Below, in pieces: positions 47,100-62,922 of a stretch of 64,000 nt of DNA (its first letter is position 1; each line of letters opens with the position of its first letter). Origin of the DNA: Candidatus Binatus sp. (GTDB taxonomy: Bacteria; Desulfobacterota; Binatia; Binatales; Binataceae); contig NZ_JAUSKL010000029.1 of assembly GCF_030646925.1 (NCBI RefSeq), positions 1 through 64,000 of the forward strand, read 5' to 3'. Position numbers and translations under genes: made by a program. A model generated the notes under the pieces. It saw nothing but the letters and a program-made list of their open reading frames with translations, was not told the DNA's origin and made no database searches.

Positions 47100-49544
47100 C
47101 TACCGGTTCATGAAGTCCGCGGCATCGGGCATCTCGATATCCGCATTCGCGCTGCCTTCGAGAATCTCGTTGGTATAGTGGTAGTAATAATTCTTGTAGT
47201 ACTTGTATTCCGGGCTCTGCAGATTGACCTTGTTGAGCAGCACGCCGAATATCTTCGCGCGCGCATATTTCAGCCGCGCGCACGCCACCCGAATCTGCTG
47301 CTTCGCCGTGGTCGCGCTGTTCACTACTACGACCACGCCATCGGCCATCGTCGACAGCACGATCGAATCGCTGACCGGCAGGATCGGCGGCGAATCCACG
47401 ATCACGAAATCGAAGTGAGCCGCCGCCTCGCTGATGATCTGCTTCATCTTCTCCGAGCCGAGCAGCTCGGTCGGATTCGGCGGCAGCGATCCCGACGTCA
47501 GTACCGATAGCCCCTCGACCTCCGTCTGCCGGATCATTTCGAACGTATCGCGCCGCCCCGTCAGCACTTCGGTAAGTCCCGGCTCCTTGTCCATCGCGAA
47601 CACGCGATGCACTCTTGGCTTGCGCAAGTCCGCGTCGATCAGCAGCACCTTGGCCCCGGTATGCGCAAACAGCACGGCCGAGTTGGTCGAGGTGACGGTC
47701 TTGCCCTCGCCGCTGGTGGTGCTCGTCATCAGGATCACTTTCGGCGGCGCGCCCGCGCGCGACAGCAGGATTCCCGTGCGCAGCGTCCGGTACGCCTCAC
47801 CGTGCACCGAGTACGGACTGAACGCGCCGATCAGTTCGCGCGGATGCCCATTGACGGACGGCATCTTCGACGACGATATCGCGCCCGCCTTCGACCCATT
47901 GCGCATCGCGGTCGAGATTACGTTCTTTAATTTTCGGCGGCCGTTGCGATTGTCGCCGTCCTGCTGCGAGAACAGCGGCACCACCGCCAGGTTGGGAACT
48001 CTGAGGTACGATTCCACTTCTTCCGGCGTCTTCAGCCGGTTGTTGAGGAACTCCAGCAGAAATGCCAGCGCGATTCCCGCCACCAGCGACAGCACCGCCG
48101 CTTCCATCACGCTCTGCATGATCTTCGGACTCGACGGACCGCCCGGCACTTCCGCGCTATCGATCACCACCACGTTCGAGGATCGCGCCTGCGCCGCCAG
48201 CCCGACGTCCTTCATCCGCTGCAGCACGCTGTTGTACAGCTCGCGATTGGTATCGACCTCGCGCTGCAGAATCGCGTACTCGACCGCCGCGTCATTCAGC
48301 CCGAGCGCGTGCGCGCGATCGCGGTCCATCTCTTCCTGCAGCTTCTGCTGCCTGATCTGCGCCTGCTTGTACGCCGATTCGATACTTGATCGCACCCGCT
48401 GCACTTCTTCGTCGATACTGTGCTGCACTTCATCCCGCTTCGCCTGCAGCCGCGCGAGCGGCGGATAATCCGGCTTGAACTGCTTCGCCATCCCCGCGTA
48501 TTCGGTCGAGAGCTGATCGTATTCCGCGCGCAGTTGCTGCAGCGCCTTGTCCTCGTGCAGTTGCGGCAACACTTCGTACTGCCGGTTGCGCACCATCTGC
48601 ACCTGCGATTCCATCTCGAGCGTCGCCACCTGCGCTTCGGTCAGGTCCTTGCTCAACACCGCGAGCCGATCGAGCACGATCGTTTCCTTGCCGTCGAGCG
48701 ACATCAGCCCCGGCACGATCCCCTGGTCGCGCCGGTACCGATTCAGCGCATACTCGGACTTCTGCAGCTTCTCCTTGAGCTCGACCAGCTTCAGTTGCAG
48801 GAACTTCTGCGCTTCCTCGTTCGCCTGGCTGTGCAGCTCGATCCCTTGCCGGATGTATGCGTGCGCGTGCGCGTTGGACAGCCGCGCCGACAGTTCCGGA
48901 TCGGGCGTGGTGAATTCCACTTTCACCAGGTTGGTGTCCGGCACCGGCCGCACCGCGAGACCGCCCATGTACGCGCCGACCGCCGCCGGGCTCACTCCGT
49001 CCAGTTCCGGAGCCGGGTCCGCGCTCGAAGCGGCGGCCTTCCTCGGTTCTGATTTTCCCGCGACCCCGTGAATCCAGTGTCCGATCGCCGCCTTGGCCGA
49101 GCCGTACCAACCGGGCGCGCTCTTCTGTCGCGAAGTCAGCCGCTTTTCGAGGCCGTTGTACTTGATCGCGCTGACCGCCAGGCTCCGGCTCTTGAGTATC
49201 TCGTATTGAGTCTTGTTGAAGGTCTCGTAGTAGTCGTATTGGTCGGTGCTGGAATTGTCCCCCTGCACCTGGCTGCCGAATATCTGCGGCGTCCCAGGCT
49301 TGATCAGCATCGTCGCGCTGGCCGTGTAAAGCGGCGTCTCGATTAGAACCCGGATCGTTTTGAGCGCGCTGAAGCCGAGACAGATCGCGACGATCAGCGG
49401 CAGATGCTTTCTGATCGTGCGCCAGTATTGATTGAAATCGATCCGCCCTTCGTCCTCGTCGAAAAAATGGATCCGATTGTCATTCGGATCGATTTCGTCG
49501 AGCGCCGCCGTGCGGCGGATGAAGTATGGCGAAGGTTGCGTCAT
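47100..49544 (-). CDS. wzc: Wzc/ExoP-type polysaccharide co-polymerase and tyrosine autokinase
   Basis: 814 residues. N-terminal Wzz domain with first membrane helix near residue 45 (LPLIVAICLGFSALKT), a long periplasmic coiled-coil (about 230-430), second helix near 490 (AAVLSLVAGIALAFLLEFLNN). Cytoplasmic BY-kinase: Walker A TTSGEGKT near 609, Walker A' LLIDADLRKP near 634, Walker B FVIVDSPP near 712, and a tyrosine cluster YKYYKNYYYHY near 780 for autophosphorylation. Controls chain length and export together with Wza, encoded just upstream. Confidence 0.95.
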   Translation of the reverse strand: MTQPSPYFIRRTAALDEIDPNDNRIHFFDEDEGRIDFNQYWRTIRKHLPLIVAICLGFSALKTIRVLIETPLYTASATMLIKPGTPQIFGSQVQGDNSSTDQYDYYETFNKTQYEILKSRSLAVSAIKYNGLEKRLTSRQKSAPGWYGSAKAAIGHWIHGVAGKSEPRKAAASSADPAPELDGVSPAAVGAYMGGLAVRPVPDTNLVKVEFTTPDPELSARLSNAHAHAYIRQGIELHSQANEEAQKFLQLKLVELKEKLQKSEYALNRYRRDQGIVPGLMSLDGKETIVLDRLAVLSKDLTEAQVATLEMESQVQMVRNRQYEVLPQLHEDKALQQLRAEYDQLSTEYAGMAKQFKPDYPPLARLQAKRDEVQHSIDEEVQRVRSSIESAYKQAQIRQQKLQEEMDRDRAHALGLNDAAVEYAILQREVDTNRELYNSVLQRMKDVGLAAQARSSNVVVIDSAEVPGGPSSPKIMQSVMEAAVLSLVAGIALAFLLEFLNNRLKTPEEVESYLRVPNLAVVPLFSQQDGDNRNGRRKLKNVISTAMRNGSKAGAISSSKMPSVNGHPRELIGAFSPYSVHGEAYRTLRTGILLSRAGAPPKVILMTSTTSGEGKTVTSTNSAVLFAHTGAKVLLIDADLRKPRVHRVFAMDKEPGLTEVLTGRRDTFEMIRQTEVEGLSVLTSGSLPPNPTELLGSEKMKQIISEAAAHFDFVIVDSPPILPVSDSIVLSTMADGVVVVVNSATTAKQQIRVACARLKYARAKIFGVLLNKVNLQSPEYKYYKNYYYHYTNEILEGSANADIEMPDAADFMNR

Positions 49545-49557
49545 CGGAATTTCCGCC

Positions 49558-50754
49558 TCAGAACGTGTAGCCCGGCACCGGTACGCGCGTCAGCAGGTTG
49601 TACACCACGTAGGGAGCGATCTTCAGGTCCGAGTACGGCACATCGATTACATCATTGGCGCGCACCGGGATATCCGGATCCTCGCCCTTGGAAATTCTAA
49701 CCAGGTTCATCGGGATCGATACCTTGCTGCCGGTTCCGTCACTGCGAATCAGCGTCGCCCGGGTCGGATCTGCCGCGAACATCGCGCCGCCCGCGGCGCC
49801 CACCGCGCCCAGCACCGATAGCCCCGATCCGACCTGAAAAAATCCCGCCTTATAAACCCAGCCCGTCACCATCACGTTGCCGCCGCCCGGCACCACTATA
49901 ATGTCGCCTGGACTGGCCGGCATGTTCACATACTTGCGACTGCCCGTCATCGCGGTCTTGAGCGGTATCACCACGGCCGGGCCGTTGCCCAGATTCTGCT
50001 CCAGGCTCACGACATCCACCACGCCTCCCTGCGCTTGCTCCCGGTCGGGCGATTGTCCCTTTGCGATCGCCGGACGCACCGTCTTGCCCGCGGTCCGACT
50101 CGGTTCAGCGTACGCCGCCGCCAGCTCCGCCAGTTTGCCGCGACCGCCCTTTACTTCCGGCAAAATAACAATTTCGTCGGCCGCGTCCGGCGTCATTCCA
50201 CCCGCCTGCGTGATGACATCCAGGATGCTATCGCCCGACCCGGTAAGCACCACCAGCCCGGGTCTGCGGACCGCTCCGACCACCGCGACCTGCCGGCTGT
50301 GGTACTCCTTCACGAACACATCGACCTGCGGATCGTACATGTACTTGCCGAGCGCCGCTTTCAACCGATCGCGAAACCCGCTCTCGCTCATCCCCGACGC
50401 CTGCACGATTCCGATCAGCGGCAGCTCGACTTCCCCGTTGCCACTCACGCGAACGGTTCGATCCTTCAGATCGTCCACGCCCGGCGCCGATACTTCGATC
50501 ACGTCGCCCGGTCCGATCGGATAATCAGTCGAATCCTTGGCGGTGGCACGCTTCTCCCACAGCGCATCCAGTCTCTCGATATTGATCTCCGACGACCCGA
50601 TACTTGGCACTCTCGGATCGATAGCCGGCGCTCGACCGATCTCGGCTGGCTCGGGCGGAATTGGCGGAGCACTGGCGCACGCGGCCAGCCCGATCGCCAG
50701 CAACAGAGCATTTGCCGCCAACGCCATGCAACTTGTCAGCTTGTTCGTCTTCAA
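49558..50754 (-). CDS. wza: Wza-family outer-membrane polysaccharide export lipoprotein
   Basis: 398 residues from TTG 50754; an ATG at 50727 is also in frame, but the TTG keeps the positive MKTNK start before the hydrophobic core. Lipobox GLAAC makes Cys26 the lipid site. The Poly_export block YPIGPGDVIEVSAPGVDDL, then SLBB-like strands (QVAVVGAVRRPGLVVLTG, NVMVTGWVYKAGFF) are standard for Wza/KpsD. An insert of about 70 residues (PEVKGGRGKLAELAAAYAEP region) sits between SLBB domains. It forms the outer-membrane export channel. First gene of the long glycan operon, behind a 230-base leader. Confidence 0.92.
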   Translation of the reverse strand: MKTNKLTSCMALAANALLLAIGLAACASAPPIPPEPAEIGRAPAIDPRVPSIGSSEINIERLDALWEKRATAKDSTDYPIGPGDVIEVSAPGVDDLKDRTVRVSGNGEVELPLIGIVQASGMSESGFRDRLKAALGKYMYDPQVDVFVKEYHSRQVAVVGAVRRPGLVVLTGSGDSILDVITQAGGMTPDAADEIVILPEVKGGRGKLAELAAAYAEPSRTAGKTVRPAIAKGQSPDREQAQGGVVDVVSLEQNLGNGPAVVIPLKTAMTGSRKYVNMPASPGDIIVVPGGGNVMVTGWVYKAGFFQVGSGLSVLGAVGAAGGAMFAADPTRATLIRSDGTGSKVSIPMNLVRISKGEDPDIPVRANDVIDVPYSDLKIAPYVVYNLLTRVPVPGYTF

Positions 50755-52608: not shown

Positions 52609-55600
52609 TTACTTCCCGATGCAATTGACGTTGATCGTATCGCCATGCATGTCGGCGCTCGCCGGCTGAGTCAGCGTGACGTGATTGGCGTCGCTCCACA
52701 CCTGCTTCATCGCAGCGCCGGCCGTGATATCCTCCGCGACGCATACCGGCTGATTCGCAAACGCCGCCGCGCTTCCCATCGCGACTGCACAACTGGTCTG
52801 CGTCCCGCCGCCCACCACGATCGCGAATGCATTGTTAGTTCCGCCCGCCACGACCGATCCGTTCGGCGACGATCCGCATGCCGACACCGTCGGCGTCGTA
52901 TTCGCGACGCCGTTGGTGACCGACGACAGGATCCCGCCGTTGCCCAGCGTGAGACTCTTCAGCGAGCTCTGATCGGCGATTGCCTGCGCCTTCGTCAGAT
53001 CGTCCGCCAGCGCCACCCCCGACGCGCCGAGCGATCTGCCGTTGATCACCGGGTTGATCCACATGACCGGATTGCCCGGCGACGTTGTCCCGATAAACCC
53101 GATCAGCGGCGCCGGAGTGCCGCTCGTCTCGACGTGAGTGCCGATCAGCGTGACGCCGATTCCGTTGTCTTTGGGATTGATTTGAATTGCGTTCTGCATG
53201 CCGTCCTGCAAGTCGCCGCCGATGAACTCATAAGTCCCCGATTGCGACACCTTGACCGGCACCTGTGATCCTCCGGTCTCGAAATCTACCGCGACGTCTT
53301 CGAAAACGTAGTCGTGGAACACCACGCTCGACGCCGCGTTCAGATCATTTAGCGTCTGACTCCCCGGCGAGATGAAGAGCTGCGAATAAACTCCGCCCGC
53401 ATCGGTGAGATTCAGCCCGTAGTATCCCGGCATCACCGTGAGCCAATCCGCTTTCACCAGGCCCGACGCGCCCGATATCTCCAGCGCCGCCTCGCCGAAC
53501 GCCGCCGCATTCAAAAACAGATGATTCAGATGCGCGCCGTAAGAGTTGTTGTAGATCCGAATCGGGCAAACCAGTCCGCCCGCCGCCAGATGCTCCAAAT
53601 TCAGATACAGCGATCCCACCGCCAGCACGCTGTAGCTGCCGCCGCTGAAGCCCAGGTAGCTGATCCGATTGTTCGCAGAGCCGCCCAGCAAATCGAAATT
53701 GTGGATCGGTATCCACTTCGGCACCGCGCCCGAACCCGTCACCGTATCGACCTTGATCAGCGTGTCGCGCACCTCCGCGATGTTCATCAGGAACATCGTG
53801 TTGCCGTCCGATCCGAATTTCGTGCTCGGCGCCGTGAAGTTCGACGTATGCCGCGCCAGGTCCGATATCCGGATCGAGTCGAGTTGTCCCTGGAACTGGC
53901 TGCTCACGTTGATTCCGTTGAATTGCGCCTTGTTGCCCAGCACGAAATTCTCAGCCGGCTTCTGCACGATCGTTCCAGTCGCCGGCTGCGACGCCCCGAT
54001 CTGTACGCCGTCGAGAAACAGCCGCACGAACGATCCGTCGTAATTGAGCTCGATCGCGTGCACCACGTCCGGCGTGAAATTCCCCGCCGTCGATACGCAC
54101 TGTTGTCCGCTGCCGCTGGTCGTGAAGCATCCCGTCAGCGTATTCGGCGATCCCGGCTGCACATGGATATCGACCGCGCTGTCGATCCCGTTGACCCGAT
54201 ACAAGTCGTCGCCGAAGCTCGCCATGATGTACGGCTGCCCGAAACCGGTGCCGGTCATCTTCGCGAACAACTCGACGCTGATCGACGCCATCCCATTGAG
54301 CGGTTGCGCGTTGTGGAATACCGCCGATCCGTTGTTGCCCTGGGTCGCATCCTTCAGGTTCACGTACCAGTACTTGCTGCCGGGAAAATTGAGCGAGTTG
54401 CCCGCTCCCGTCGCCAGTGAAGGCGCGAGGAACGCTCCGAGGTCCGTGATATTCTGGGGACTCTCTACGTAAAAAATCGGGAATTGCCCCGGACCCAGCG
54501 CTGGCACCGAGGCATTGATTATCGACGTATACTCTCCGTCGCCGCGAACGTTGATCGGCGATCCGCAGCTCATGATGATCGAAAACGTCGTCCGATAACG
54601 GCCCGCCGGAAAATACACCGTCGGCGTCTGGATCGGATCGATCGCTGCCGCGGCGCACGCCGCGTCATACGCCGCCTGGATCGCCAACGTATCGTCGGTC
54701 AGATTGTCGCCTCGCGCGCCGCCCGCGTAAGCCGGATTGCGCACGTTGAACAGCCCGTCGTTGTTGAACCCCGCGATCGACGGAGTCCCGCCGTCCGACG
54801 ACCCGGCCAGCGAAACCAGTTCCGCGTAGGCGTCGCCTTGCAGGATCGGCGAAGCGCTCGCCACCGACGCTGCCTTGATCGCGATCTGCGCCGCCGACAG
54901 TGTCGCGCTGCCGCCGCAACAAAATGACGTCGTCGCCACCACGCTCGATCCCGCCGGATGCACCTGCGTGTAGGCGCCCGCCGAATGAGGCAGATTGCCG
55001 CCCGGCGTTTGCTGCCACGCGAGCGTCCCCCGGCTGAACGATACCGCCTGCGCGTAGCCGCTCGATCCCGCCCCGAATACCAGCACCAATTCGCTCGGCG
55101 CCGCGATCGTCAGCGGCGACAGCGTCACCGACGTCCCGCCGACGCTCGCAAACGTCGAACTGTCGATCGGCGCGCTCACGTTCGCGCCCGTGATCGCCAT
55201 GATCCCGCCGACCGCGTATTGCCCGCCGGTCCACGTCCATTGATAACTCGACGGCTCGCTGCTCCCCGCCACGTGAAAGTACTCGACCAGCATCCCGCCC
55301 GCCGAGTCCGAACGCACCGGCGTCCATCCCGACGGCGGCGTGATCGTGAGATTCGCCTGGATAAAAAACGACGCGACCTCGAGCATCCCCGCCGCAAGGC
55401 ACGATGGTTTTGGGAAAGTGATCGATCCGCCGCCCGCCACCTGTCCGACACTCGAGCACGCCACCGCCGGCGGCGGCGAATCCACCAGCGTTGCCTTCGC
55501 CTGGTTCGAGTAAAGCGGCGCCTTGCCATCGAGCACGGTCTGCACGATCGGGTTCGGCAGCGGTCCCGACAGATCGTTGCCGCCCGCCTGCCCGAATACG

Positions 55601-56040
55601 AGCGCGTCGCCCGCCGCGGTTCCATTCGCCAGGCCTGTGAGCTTGTTCCCGTTGGCGTTCAGATTCGCCTCCAGCGCTTCCGTCGCGCATGACCACACCC
55701 CGCGCGTAGCGCGCGCCCACGCCCCCGATCCGCTGCCCGCGCATGGCGCGACGCGCTTGCAGTCCTGGCAGTAGAACAGCATGCCGTCCGCGGGTATCGG
55801 CAAGTTCGCGAACGCCAGGCTGACGATCGTCGGCGATATCGGCTGCACGCCCGAGAATCGATTATTGATCGCTGTGCGAAACTGAAGTCCCGCCCCCACC
55901 CCGGTGAAATTCGGAATCGGCCGATACGCGCCCGGCGGCGGCAATTGCGCATGCGCGCTGGTGCACGTCCAGACCATCGCCGCCAGCGCCGCCGCTGCGC
56001 ACCTGATTGCTGCCCCCATCGAAGTTCGAGTCAACTGCAT
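52609..56040 (-). CDS. Large secreted protein: phage-tail-like collar, pectate-lyase-like helix and LamG-like domain
   Basis: 1143 residues from ATG 56040; residues 1-31 are a signal peptide ending AHA. A phage-tail-type stretch follows: NLNANGNKLTGLANGTAAGD (126-145) and NDLSGPLPNPIVQ (155-167), phrases common in tail fibres. About 450-560 holds the pectate-lyase superfamily entry motif GDNLTDDTLAIQAAYDAA and VYFPAGRYRT. A concanavalin/LamG-like fold spans about 560-770 (FVRLFLDGVQIGAS, LDSIRISDLARHT). A right-handed beta-helix-like part and a compact C-terminal domain (VCVAEDITAG, DTINVNCIGK) finish it. Candidate secreted glycan-binding or glycan-cleaving protein of the locus; enzymatic residues not identified. 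Confidence 0.75.
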   Translation of the reverse strand: MQLTRTSMGAAIRCAAAALAAMVWTCTSAHAQLPPPGAYRPIPNFTGVGAGLQFRTAINNRFSGVQPISPTIVSLAFANLPIPADGMLFYCQDCKRVAPCAGSGSGAWARATRGVWSCATEALEANLNANGNKLTGLANGTAAGDALVFGQAGGNDLSGPLPNPIVQTVLDGKAPLYSNQAKATLVDSPPPAVACSSVGQVAGGGSITFPKPSCLAAGMLEVASFFIQANLTITPPSGWTPVRSDSAGGMLVEYFHVAGSSEPSSYQWTWTGGQYAVGGIMAITGANVSAPIDSSTFASVGGTSVTLSPLTIAAPSELVLVFGAGSSGYAQAVSFSRGTLAWQQTPGGNLPHSAGAYTQVHPAGSSVVATTSFCCGGSATLSAAQIAIKAASVASASPILQGDAYAELVSLAGSSDGGTPSIAGFNNDGLFNVRNPAYAGGARGDNLTDDTLAIQAAYDAACAAAAIDPIQTPTVYFPAGRYRTTFSIIMSCGSPINVRGDGEYTSIINASVPALGPGQFPIFYVESPQNITDLGAFLAPSLATGAGNSLNFPGSKYWYVNLKDATQGNNGSAVFHNAQPLNGMASISVELFAKMTGTGFGQPYIMASFGDDLYRVNGIDSAVDIHVQPGSPNTLTGCFTTSGSGQQCVSTAGNFTPDVVHAIELNYDGSFVRLFLDGVQIGASQPATGTIVQKPAENFVLGNKAQFNGINVSSQFQGQLDSIRISDLARHTSNFTAPSTKFGSDGNTMFLMNIAEVRDTLIKVDTVTGSGAVPKWIPIHNFDLLGGSANNRISYLGFSGGSYSVLAVGSLYLNLEHLAAGGLVCPIRIYNNSYGAHLNHLFLNAAAFGEAALEISGASGLVKADWLTVMPGYYGLNLTDAGGVYSQLFISPGSQTLNDLNAASSVVFHDYVFEDVAVDFETGGSQVPVKVSQSGTYEFIGGDLQDGMQNAIQINPKDNGIGVTLIGTHVETSGTPAPLIGFIGTTSPGNPVMWINPVINGRSLGASGVALADDLTKAQAIADQSSLKSLTLGNGGILSSVTNGVANTTPTVSACGSSPNGSVVAGGTNNAFAIVVGGGTQTSCAVAMGSAAAFANQPVCVAEDITAGAAMKQVWSDANHVTLTQPASADMHGDTINVNCIGK

Positions 56041-56164
56041 TCGATGCACCTGCCGGTCGGTTATTCGGTCGCGGCCTGCATCTCGCAACGATCGTGTCCT
56101 GCGCCAACTACGGCGGAATCGGTTCGAGCCGGAGTCTTACACGCAGCGTCAAACCGGCATAAGG

Positions 56165-56192
56165 CTGAACAGTTCAGGGCCGAACTGTTCAG
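56165..56192. repeat. Perfect 11-base inverted repeat
   Basis: CTGAACAGTTC (56165-56175), AGGGCC, GAACTGTTCAG (56182-56192). It lies about 125 bases before the start of the large secreted protein gene. There is no adjacent T-tract, so a protein-binding operator or an mRNA hairpin is more likely than a terminator. Confidence 0.6.
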
Positions 56193-61047: not shown

Positions 61048-62922
61048 TTACGACCTGAGCGGCCCCGGAACGTTGCTCATCAACGCCGCCGCCTCCATCT
61101 CCACCAATGCCGCGTCGCTGCCGTTCGCCGACTTCATATCCGTGAGTCCCAGCCAGAATCGCCGCAGCATCATCCGATGATCCATCGCGAAGGATTTGAG
61201 CGCATCGATCTGTTCCGATGACAGCGATTCCTGCGCGATTACGATCTCGTGAAACGGCTTGCGCGCCACGATCTCCGCCAGATCCGTGATTCCTCCCAGC
61301 ACCGGATATCCGTGGAACAGCTTGCCATGCTTGAAGCGATCCTCGTCGATAAGTCCGAGCAGTTCTACATGATTGCCGAGACTCGCCTGCCAGTGCTGGA
61401 TGACCGCCTGCCCGCGTCCGTCCGCGCCCACCACGATCGCCCGGCGCGGCGACGACGCGAGCAGTTGCGCAATTCTGCCGAAGACCGGAAACGACCACCG
61501 CGTCGCCATCAGGAAGTTGAACAGCAACAGCACGAACACCACCGCGGTCGAGTGCGTGATCGAAATCGGCAGCACGGTCGCCGCGATCACCACCATCACG
61601 CCGGCCAGCATCGAGGCGACCGCGAAGCGCACCGCCTCCGCGACTCCGGTATATCGCCAGATACCGCGATAAACTCCCGCGAACAGAAACGCGCCGCATC
61701 CAATCACCACCACATACGGCAGCCCGATCAGCATCTGGCCCACCTGATCGGGCCGCAGGTGAAAGTCGAAACGCAGGCTCATCGCGCCAAAATACGCCGC
61801 CATCACCAGCGCCACGTCGAGCACCAGTTCCACCAGCCGCCGCTTATACCCGAAGCTCAGAATTATCCGCGCGACCGGCGGCAACTCCGCGGCGCGGCTC
61901 TGCGACTCCGTGTCGAATGATTTGTCCATCAGGAACAATGCCACCAGCGCGAAGAACAGCACGACGAACGGCAGCAGCAACACCGCGTCGTAACCCGGCA
62001 CGAGGCTGATCGCGATCGCGCATGCGCCCGCGAGCGCCTGCAGCGCAACCAGCGTGCCCGCCGCCCGCGATTCCGAGAGTCCCAATCGCGCCAATCGATG
62101 ATGCGAATGGTCCAGCCCCCGCTTGGAGATCGGTTTCCCCAGCGCGAGCCGCGTGATCGTCACCGTTACCGTGTCGAGCAACGGCACCATCAGCGCGAGC
62201 AGCGGCATCGCCAGCCGCGCCGGCATCGAGCCTTCGCCCGCGTGGCTCGCCTGGATCGACAAAACGCCGAGAATCAGCCCGACCGTGAGAGCGCCTTCGT
62301 CGCCCATGAATATCGACGCCGGCGGATAATTGAAAACCAGGAATCCCGCCATCGCGCCGCTCAGCGCGAGCGCCGCCGCCATCGTCGCCTGATGGTCATG
62401 CAGCGCCGCGACGATCGCGATACTGGTCGCCGCGATCATTCCAACGCCGGCCGCGAGCCCGTCGAGTCCGTCGATCAGATTGAAAGCGTTGGTCGCCACC
62501 AGCAGCCAGAAAATCGTGAGCGCGATATTCGCCCACTGGTACGGCAGCAAATCGAGTTGCGGTCCCCACACGCCAAGCAGGCCGATCGCGATCAGCTCCA
62601 GCGCCACCTTGTAGCGCGGCCGCAATTCCATCAGGTCGTCCAGCAGTCCCACCGCGAACATCGCAAACGAGAATGCCGTCAGCCACATCAGCTTGTCTTG
62701 CGGCCAATTCGACAGATTGCAAACGAGCCCGATCGCCACCACGAAACCGCCGATGATCGCGATTCCGCCTAACTGCGGCGTCGGTTGCAAATGAACGCGG
62801 TCGGTCGAGGGTCTCGCCAGCGCTCCGATCCGCATCGCGATCTGCTTCGCGATCGGCACCAGCGCTGACGCTGTGACGAAAGCGACCAACAGAATCAGTC
62901 CGATTTCGGAGTATTGGATCAA
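61048..62922 (-). CDS. Fusion of WecA-like glycosyl-phosphotransferase and FlaA1-like membrane/Rossmann module
   Basis: 624 residues from TTG 62922. Residues 1-330: polyprenyl-phosphate N-acetylhexosamine-1-phosphate transferase (WecA/TagO) with LDDLMELRPRYK, NAFNLIDGLDGLAAG, FMGDEGAL and HSHHRLARLGL. Residues about 345-480: four membrane helices (GYKRRLVELVLDVALVMAAY, VYRGIWRYTG) like the N-terminus of FlaA1/CapD polysaccharide proteins, then a Rossmann strand RAIVVGADGRGQAVIQH near 490, but no dehydratase domain. It would start lipid-linked glycan synthesis, with the appended module possibly regulatory. Gene order places it upstream of the Ig-like protein gene. Confidence 0.88.
   Translation of the reverse strand: MIQYSEIGLILLVAFVTASALVPIAKQIAMRIGALARPSTDRVHLQPTPQLGGIAIIGGFVVAIGLVCNLSNWPQDKLMWLTAFSFAMFAVGLLDDLMELRPRYKVALELIAIGLLGVWGPQLDLLPYQWANIALTIFWLLVATNAFNLIDGLDGLAAGVGMIAATSIAIVAALHDHQATMAAALALSGAMAGFLVFNYPPASIFMGDEGALTVGLILGVLSIQASHAGEGSMPARLAMPLLALMVPLLDTVTVTITRLALGKPISKRGLDHSHHRLARLGLSESRAAGTLVALQALAGACAIAISLVPGYDAVLLLPFVVLFFALVALFLMDKSFDTESQSRAAELPPVARIILSFGYKRRLVELVLDVALVMAAYFGAMSLRFDFHLRPDQVGQMLIGLPYVVVIGCGAFLFAGVYRGIWRYTGVAEAVRFAVASMLAGVMVVIAATVLPISITHSTAVVFVLLLFNFLMATRWSFPVFGRIAQLLASSPRRAIVVGADGRGQAVIQHWQASLGNHVELLGLIDEDRFKHGKLFHGYPVLGGITDLAEIVARKPFHEIVIAQESLSSEQIDALKSFAMDHRMMLRRFWLGLTDMKSANGSDAALVEMEAAALMSNVPGPLRS

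Follow-up and report, generated by a model that had tools for sequence, protein, structure and literature searches.

A predicted Sec-exported tailspike-like protein in an exopolysaccharide locus of Candidatus Binatus shares a palindromic element with a Mu-like particle resembling a gene transfer agent

The 64,000 nucleotides analysed here (positions 1 to 64,000 of contig NZ_JAUSKL010000029.1, assembly GCF_030646925.1, from the uncultured soil bacterium Candidatus Binatus sp.; hereafter the window) contain, among genes for an exopolysaccharide (EPS), a gene for a large protein that resembles a phage tailspike and begins with a predicted signal peptide. This raises the question why a cell should export a tailspike, and to what such a spike belongs. 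On balance, and with somewhat better than even confidence, we favour the answer that the window protein is an exported, particle-associated tailspike directed at the cells' own exopolysaccharide and acting in the manner of TspA of the gene transfer agent RcGTA, regulon included; enzyme activity, attachment and DNA transfer we infer. The gene, the predicted parts of its product and the putative regulon element before it are as follows:

52609..56040 (-), predicted Sec-exported tailspike-like protein; ATG at 56040, 1143 amino acids, stop codon included in the span
55948..56040 (-), predicted Sec signal peptide, residues 1-31; predicted cut between AHA and Q, from a crude rule and reading by eye
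55681..55947 (-), constant N-terminal module (N-module), residues 32-120, with four conserved cysteines (alignments A1 and A3)
55501..55680 (-), tail-fibre-like linker, residues 121-180, recognised by eye and unstructured in the model
54871..55473 (-), predicted beta-sandwich, residues ~190-390, from AlphaFold2 secondary structure; predicted local distance difference test (pLDDT) 55-88 for the block
52951..54765 (-), right-handed beta-helix, residues ~426-1030, from PF12708, the AlphaFold2 model and VIA-align
53851..54339 (-), LamG/concanavalin-like domain within the beta-helix, residues 568-730, from PF13385 and matches to pentraxin/LamG-like folds
52612..52950 (-), C-terminal domain, residues 1031-1143, common to similar proteins of loci L034, L036, L115 and L118; poorly modelled
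56159..56177 (-), putative regulon element CTGAACTGTTCAGCCTTAT, 118 nt upstream of the ATG; the genome has three exact copies in all

The palindrome CTGAACNGTTCAGNCTTAT is matched exactly at three sites, and no more, across the 4.58 Mb of the window's genome (G000), where 0.00015 would be expected from base composition: they belong to the window spike, to an unlinked paralogous spike on contig C4 and to the capsid-tail operon of a Mu-like particle on contig C78. One further site carries two mismatches; the reversed pattern, used as a control, has no site in G000 and five in total across the other 40 genomes. Comparison of the upstream stretches gave 20 of 20 matching positions between both unlinked spikes and 18 of 20 for each of them against the capsid operon, with a maximum of 15 in ten shuffled controls and none of 200 reaching 18. 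No element was found before the G000 terminase block. A similar arrangement is present in G003, with the element exact before one spike and before the capsid operon and with one mismatch before the other spike, which matches the operon at 17 of 20 positions (2 of 200 shuffles equal); two other G003 sites, C1:43545 (exact) and C140:30610 (one mismatch), lack an explanation. In six genomes (G000, G001, G002, G005, G006 and G016), 52 nt separate the first base of the element from the operon headed by the protease. A different palindrome, TGGTGAAANNTTTCACCC, takes this place in G007 (genus g2), where it is exact at only two sites, that of the unlinked spike and that of the capsid operon, a third palindromic site having one mismatch; with at most one mismatch it also stands before lysozyme or capsid blocks in genera g7, g8 and g14. 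Clear elements thus precede five of nine unlinked spikes (two each in G000 and G003, one in G007). The shared element suggests that the window spike helps the particle to cross the slime between cells, and it makes the putative regulon directly testable.

Other copies of these palindromes were seen near further genes and away from genes. In loci L214, L219 and L225 (G005, G001 and G006), a copy with one or two mismatches lies ~346 nt before a response-regulator-like gene, and a gene similar to it by eye is close to the unlinked C4 spike of G000. At L244:3255 (G002:C140), the element with one mismatch lies 76 nt before a gene for a 236-amino-acid protein with the peptidoglycan-binding domain PF01471, possibly an unlinked lysis gene. 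In two genomes of genus g11 (G016, G029) and, in the TGGTGAAANNTTTCACCC form, in one of g6 (G011), palindromes occur as dispersed near-identical copies, many of them far from gene starts, for which we considered a repeat family, a regulator sponge or a packaging signal.

Most relatives of the window protein are encoded at the end of a tail operon. Its usual order is GpU, GpX, GpD, GpV, gp25, GpJ, GpI, a phrog_5417 protein and a gp53-like short fibre, followed by the spike, and in 17 of 25 genomes a spike follows tail-fibre genes that belong to a contractile-tailed, Mu-like particle: in 15 the N-module lies on the Baseplate_J contig at a distance of at most 7 kb, and in two more (G004, G012) the contig ends, yet the fibre gene adjoins the spike. 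Spikes off the cassette occur in six genomes (two each in G000 and G003, and G007, G022, G017 and G027). The G014 spike lies beside a gp53-like gene on a different contig, the G035 spike terminates a prophage that carries MuA and MuB, and G062 has one linked spike and a second without neighbouring cassette genes; unlinked spikes number nine in total. Among IMG/VR loci, a collection itself chosen for viral genes, the spike stands at most three genes behind tail genes in 42 of 44, the other two (L146, L150) being cut or uncalled. The slot behind the fibre is filled by a TrkA-type channel gene in G000, G003 and G017, and in G030 this gene follows after two small genes (label from Pfam for G000, by eye for G003, G017 and G030).

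Spike and tail also co-occur. Counting strong matches only (alignment A1 at E<=1e-12, Baseplate_J at E<1e-40; this dropped the module of G033 and the Baseplate_J matches of the second G002 copy, G015, G023 and G034), 25 of 41 family genomes have both N-module and Baseplate_J, three have Baseplate_J alone (G030, G033, G061), none has the module alone and 13 have neither; by genus the counts are 10, 1, 0 and 6. Fisher's test gives 3e-8 by genome and 6e-4 by genus, values that are not corrected for descent. For Portal_Mu, the corresponding figures by genome are 22 with both, three with the module alone, three with the portal alone and 13 with neither.

The particle itself is represented by genes identified in one or another relative, which encode a Mu-like gpT capsid protein, a head maturation protease, Portal_Mu, TerL (phrog_2) and a gp27 small terminase, as well as a GH108 endolysin, an Rz-like spanin, Mor and an S24/CI-type repressor for lysis and regulation; the labels DUF1320 and DUF1834 were given by eye. 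Next to its terminase-portal block, G000 encodes a Mor of its own and a Cro/CI-type protein, and no lysozyme gene was noticed in the G000 stretches that were read. In g7 and g8 the two particle blocks are contiguous; in g1, g2, g12 and g14 host genes intervene or the blocks lie on different contigs. A flank of purE and a Mur ligase accompanies the cassette in g1, g11 and g12: nine of 15 genome loci have both, or the Mur ligase alone for G000, and the other six (g2, g7, g8, g14) have neither in the stretch covered. In a baseplate J (GpJ) tree of 28 genomes from 11 genera, the number of genus-label changes was 10, the minimum (shuffling gave a mean of 18.6, and none of 200 shuffles came as low), and each of the seven genera with at least two genomes forms one clade, that of g7 weakly supported (81/82). 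Ratios of nonsynonymous to synonymous substitution (dN/dS) for three genome pairs were 0.04-0.38 in structural genes (portal only within G005/G001/G006, TerL only in G005/G001) and 0.35-0.57 in the fibre. The search for mobility genes covered the Mu transposase domain DDE_2, which is present in three of 41 genomes (G026, G027, G035). As judged from these sequences, the particle is vertically inherited at the family level. Because genera form clades in the baseplate tree, the structural genes are under purifying selection and the blocks are split by host genes in some genera, it looks like a gene transfer agent (GTA).

Two other identities were weighed. We rejected a tailocin, since head and packaging genes are kept: gpT, portal and TerL are present and conserved. 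An ordinary temperate Mu-like prophage lineage, in which the spike would be the receptor-binding protein of the virion and its signal would serve superinfection control or lysis, would explain the head, tail and lysis gene sets, the MuA and MuB upstream of such a spike in G035, the module on 44 IMG/VR contigs and a spring phage protein that has a Sec-like signal and ends in the same cysteine motif. We nevertheless regard it as unlikely, given the rarity of DDE_2, the agreement between genera and clades of the baseplate tree, the recurrence of one purE/Mur-ligase flank in g1, g11 and g12 with blocks split by host genes, and spike genes placed in trans, two of them in EPS loci.

The G035 prophage, on contig C16, was met in loci L197 and L057; it is Mu-like with MuA and MuB, ends in a Sec-signal spike with the N-module and, by eye, also has Mor, lysozyme, terminase and tape-measure genes. 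A gene for a small RNA-binding protein with an RNA recognition motif (PF00076; E 3.2e-22 for L040) was seen inside tail or head operons at L040:17641-17925, L065:276-599 and L197:16722-17048.

What the spikes have in common is their beginning. A predicted Sec signal followed by the four-cysteine module is, at the level of sequence, the constant head of a protein family with variable C-termini. So far the family is found only in genomes of Binataceae (phylum Candidatus Binatota) and on unassigned viral contigs. Matches occurred in 23 of 58 genomes (own and relatives), all of the same GTDB family and most covering only residues ~15-165, and the 22 genomes of other families within the 58 gave none; of 198 genomes spread across the phylum, three had the module, all Binataceae. 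On GTDB contigs it was found at 20 loci, in metagenome-assembled genomes (MAGs) titled Ca. Binataceae, Ca. Binatus, Deltaproteobacteria or (uncultured) Proteobacteria. The genomes analysed are MAGs with many contigs, and genes were called by a simple script. The conserved residues are Cys51, Cys54, Cys60 and Cys78 (numbering that of alignment A1), the first two being absent in L031, one of 22 rows. A Sec-like signal precedes 57 of 62 distinct modules by the crude rule (n-region charge, hydrophobic core, AxA-type cut) and the remaining five by eye. Among 1254 control genes, 264 pass the rule as well; on tail proteins it marks 2 of 63 GpJ, 2 of 55 GpI and 2 of 49 gp53-like fibre proteins, along with 17 of 41 phrog_5417-like and 9 of 22 sheath-fragment proteins, which were taken as false positives. 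Because so many control genes are marked, the signal is supported mainly by its conservation before the module. The family offers a choice of interchangeable bodies, probably active on exopolysaccharide, that all sit on the same constant handle.

Many spikes (L042, L054, L052, L112 and others) carry a second copy of the cysteine motif at the extreme C-terminus, YC.DCDPP.NPP.ACT..G...G.....N..W.C, which the window protein does not have. The spring phage MW202444.1 (L172:4452-8213) encodes a 1253-amino-acid protein with a Sec-like signal by eye, ending in a YCSDC...PC...W.C motif that resembles the Binataceae module.

How well does the window protein itself fit this picture? We took ATG 56040 as its start because the open reading frame of its 80%-identical orthologue, L039, opens at the equivalent methionine. 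The original prediction had described a signal peptide, a pectate-lyase-like beta-helix entry and a LamG domain, all of which were recovered: the signal, MQLTRTSMGAAIRCAAAALAAMVWTCTSAHA followed by Q, passes the crude rule and was read as such by eye (residues 1-31), PF12708 matches residues 441-511 (E 8.6e-8; 32.7 bits against a curated cut-off of 27), and PF13385 matches residues 568-730 (E 1.1e-9, exceeding the gathering cut-off). The phrases typical of tail collars that it had pointed out hold in so far as gene context ties the family to phage tails; no 'tail collar' domain appeared in the Pfam scan of the protein, and the wording (~120-180) was recognised by eye. The structure prediction and tailspike comparison that it had proposed yielded a beta-helix model with VIA-align Z scores of 21-30.7 to tailspikes, depolymerases and AlgE enzymes: 30.7 for AlgE6, 30.4 for ORF18 of Geobacillus virus E2 (root-mean-square deviation 2.2, 290 residues), ~30 for AlgE4 and 21-28 for other tailspikes and depolymerases. 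The beta-helix matches come from VIA-align, the Foldseek list for the full model being filled by LamG proteins. This AlphaFold2 model, built from 25 alignment rows, has a mean pLDDT of 64; the beta-helix and LamG blocks mostly exceed 65 with some lower loops, and the signal, the linker and the C-terminal 120 residues are poorly modelled. The N-module model reached pLDDT 76, and Foldseek found nothing for it in the PDB at E<=0.001. The beta-sandwich region (residues 190-390) is also matched by one G031 protein. With the whole protein as query, a plasmid search gave no match, and INPHARED gave 13 records, namely LamG pieces of cyanophages and of Pseudomonas and Burkholderia phages and the C-terminal cysteine motif of MW202444; no relative was found on viral contigs searched with residues 435-1030. 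Against the G003 orthologue, dN/dS is 0.158 (signal 0.65, N-module 0.197, LamG 0.111, later beta-helix 0.125). As this indicates purifying selection, the gene looks functional.

An exported spike might also protect its producer, occupying or trimming the receptor polysaccharide so that particles do not bind to or inject producing cells. Predicted export and the element in common with the particle operon would fit such a decoy, but a surface anchor was noticed neither by eye nor in the Pfam scan of the window protein; we consider it very improbable.

The neighbourhood of the window gene includes the following genes:

49558..50754 (-), Wza-like polysaccharide export protein
47100..49544 (-), Wzc-like chain-length/tyrosine kinase protein
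61048..62922 (-), WecA-like glycosyltransferase (PF00953) with a CoA_binding_3 domain

Further neighbours are a 4'-phosphopantetheinyl transferase, an AMP-binding/carrier/thioesterase protein, a Wzy_C (Wzy/ligase-like) protein and glycosyltransferases. With Wza-, Wzc-, Wzy/ligase- and WecA-like proteins and glycosyltransferases adjoining, the glycan locus that had been predicted is real. The spike has the same EPS position in G000 and G003, and neighbouring EPS genes show dN/dS values of 0.12-0.23 between these genomes. These points would also fit an ordinary lyase or lectin of the EPS locus with a phage-derived N-terminus and no tie to a particle, which comes close to the original idea of a domesticated, exported tail-spike working on the host's own polysaccharide: position and 80% identity are kept, dN/dS is like that of the EPS neighbours, and glycosyltransferases, Wza and Wzc lie next to the gene. 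Of that idea, the predicted exported beta-helix protein of tailspike type in an EPS locus stands; an isolated spike devoted to host glycan alone does not, because the family sits behind Mu-like tail fibres and the element is common to the capsid-tail operon. We judge an EPS-locus enzyme without a particle quite improbable, since the element has only three exact sites in the genome, one of them at the capsid-tail operon, none of the 41 genomes has a strong module match without a strong Baseplate_J match, and the C4 paralog carries the element with no EPS genes noticed around it.

A match between spike and glycan type was not shown, because the glycosyltransferase W24059, used as marker of EPS type (22 of 41 genomes), gave no clear match to the carriers of the beta-helix/LamG body (13 of 41 genomes, one of them C-terminal only). 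In G007 (C25), at L035:8996-11206, a 736-amino-acid beta-helix/LamG protein lies in an EPS glycosyltransferase cluster homologous to that of the window; it lacks the N-module and begins with a signal recognised by eye.

For the preferred reading, an exported spike associated with the particle, the following course of events may be proposed. Once the particle programme is switched on, a regulator at CTGAACNGTTCAGCCTTAT would activate the capsid-tail operon and the two unlinked spike genes, a first candidate being the Mor-type activator encoded beside the G000 terminase-portal block. The spike would leave the cytoplasm by way of Sec, as its predicted signal indicates, and probably fold with two disulfides in the constant N-module, whose cysteines are conserved. 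Its predicted beta-helix and LamG domain may then bind or cut the exopolysaccharide of the producer and its kin, a step that fits the placement of the window gene in an EPS locus. At or after lysis, the spike would join the particles through the N-module; alternatively it could act as a free enzyme that clears slime, and the particles would leave and reach neighbouring cells. More broadly, and more tentatively, with the chances somewhat below even, Binataceae may carry an undescribed Mu-like contractile-tailed GTA whose spikes are exported ahead via Sec within one regulon and fold, with disulfides, after leaving the cytoplasm. Such spikes would remove or mark the exopolysaccharide of related cells and either be collected by lysis-released particles or prepare their way, some spike genes having moved into EPS loci so that spike and glycan co-evolve.

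The free-enzyme variant can also be taken as an explanation of its own: an EPS-clearing enzyme of the particle regulon that is never on the particle, but is co-induced, exported before lysis and clears the slime around producers and recipients. It would account for the Sec-like signals that the rule or, in five cases, reading by eye assigned to 62 distinct modules, for unlinked spike genes under the particle's element and for the L035 protein, with its signal by eye and no N-module, in the EPS cluster of G007; a soluble pool is also considered by the TspA authors in their preprint (PMC13420450). A constant N-module with a variable C-terminus behind a tail fibre resembles, however, a particle-anchored receptor-binding protein, and we think the free enzyme rather unlikely. 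These rival readings overlap in part.

Several observations weigh against a particle-associated spike in one regulon. The particles are assembled in the cytoplasm, and one would not expect a component that has to meet them there to carry a Sec signal. The element lacks support at some unlinked spikes, being weak in G022 (11 of 200 shuffles equal), without support in G027 (86 of 200) and G017 (67 of 200), and, at the second spike of G062, with no core palindrome in the surrounding sequence that was covered. It also occurs elsewhere: TGGTGAAANNTTTCACCC sites lie by unrelated or unidentified genes (exact in G035, single in G015, G018, G022, G024 and G028), matches to the CTGAACNGTTCAGNCTTAT-type element with at most two mismatches number 30 in G016 and 12 in G029, mostly dispersed and with no common theme, and G011, a genome without particle genes, has 28 matches of TGGTGAAANNTTTCACCC, the other palindrome (palindromic sites in these three genomes being counted on both strands). 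Three genomes have Baseplate_J without the module, and Portal_Mu has three exceptions in each direction. Lastly, some cassette genes have relatives within separate elements of G026 and G027 that carry MuA, and one spike (G035) lies within a prophage having MuA and MuB.

In the open-access literature, to which our searches were limited, we found no precedent for a Sec signal and four-cysteine module on such a spike and no report of phages, tailocins or GTAs in Binatota. The main text of PMC8262859 has no occurrence of phage or tail, and in PMC9938248 Binatota and prophage are both present, with no passage linking them in the excerpts of that paper. Excerpts of two other papers describe a phage esterase with a signal peptide that is not a tailspike (PMC10975493) and Mu-like prophages in Desulfovibrio piger, with citation of prophage-like gene transfer agents of D. 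desulfuricans (PMC12724379). None of five terms looked for occurred in PMC6209664.

Among known systems, Mu-like prophages have the modules Portal_Mu PF06074, Mu-like_gpT PF10124, gp27 PF11985 and Mor PF08765 in common with the Binataceae particle, which differs in being vertically inherited, split by host genes in several genera and accompanied by DDE_2 in only three of 41 genomes. R-type tailocins resemble it in that a P2/Mu-type contractile tail cassette is kept at one chromosomal site in several genera; tailocins lack heads, whereas the Binataceae particle retains conserved head, portal and terminase genes. The beta-helix of the window protein is alike (VIA-align Z 25.8-30.7) to ORF18 of Geobacillus virus E2, TSP1 and TSP2 of CBA120, gp12 of phi29, gp49 of LKA1 and the AlgE mannuronan epimerases, at 9-17% identity and with the LamG within the helix as a feature of the window protein. 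We know of no Sec signal on those phage spikes.

The closest likeness is to RcGTA, although RcGTA is alphaproteobacterial, not Mu-like and not contractile-tailed, and the Binataceae particle is Mu-like. The statement in the original prediction that no described system has this architecture was too strong, as TspA, according to the preprint, is a tailspike depolymerase that degrades biofilm, is only loosely attached and can detach, and whose gene, though unlinked, is co-regulated with the particle under GafA (PMC13420450). The preprint also states that GafA binds the tspA promoter, that TspA acts on exopolysaccharide, that TspA is conserved with the particle in one bacterial order, that it consists of a beta-sandwich, a right-handed beta-helix with an insertion domain and a C-terminal domain, and that a soluble pool was also considered; a term search of the text available for the preprint did not return 'signal peptide' (PMC13420450). 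The window protein is likewise unlinked, has within its genome an element in common with the particle operon, which may reflect similar regulation, and in its predicted structure follows the outline described for TspA, with a beta-sandwich, an interrupted beta-helix and a C-terminal domain. As differences from TspA, the window protein has a predicted Sec signal, a four-cysteine N-module and a LamG insertion, and the genes of its family are mostly linked to the cassette, with differing C-termini. The Sec signal poses the question how an exported spike meets a particle built in the cytoplasm. If the preferred reading is true, Binataceae, whose phylum is described as yet-uncultured in the title of PMC8262859, would have a GTA-like particle of independent Mu-like origin, and the window spike would be the second case, after TspA of RcGTA, of a particle recruiting an unlinked slime-active tailspike.

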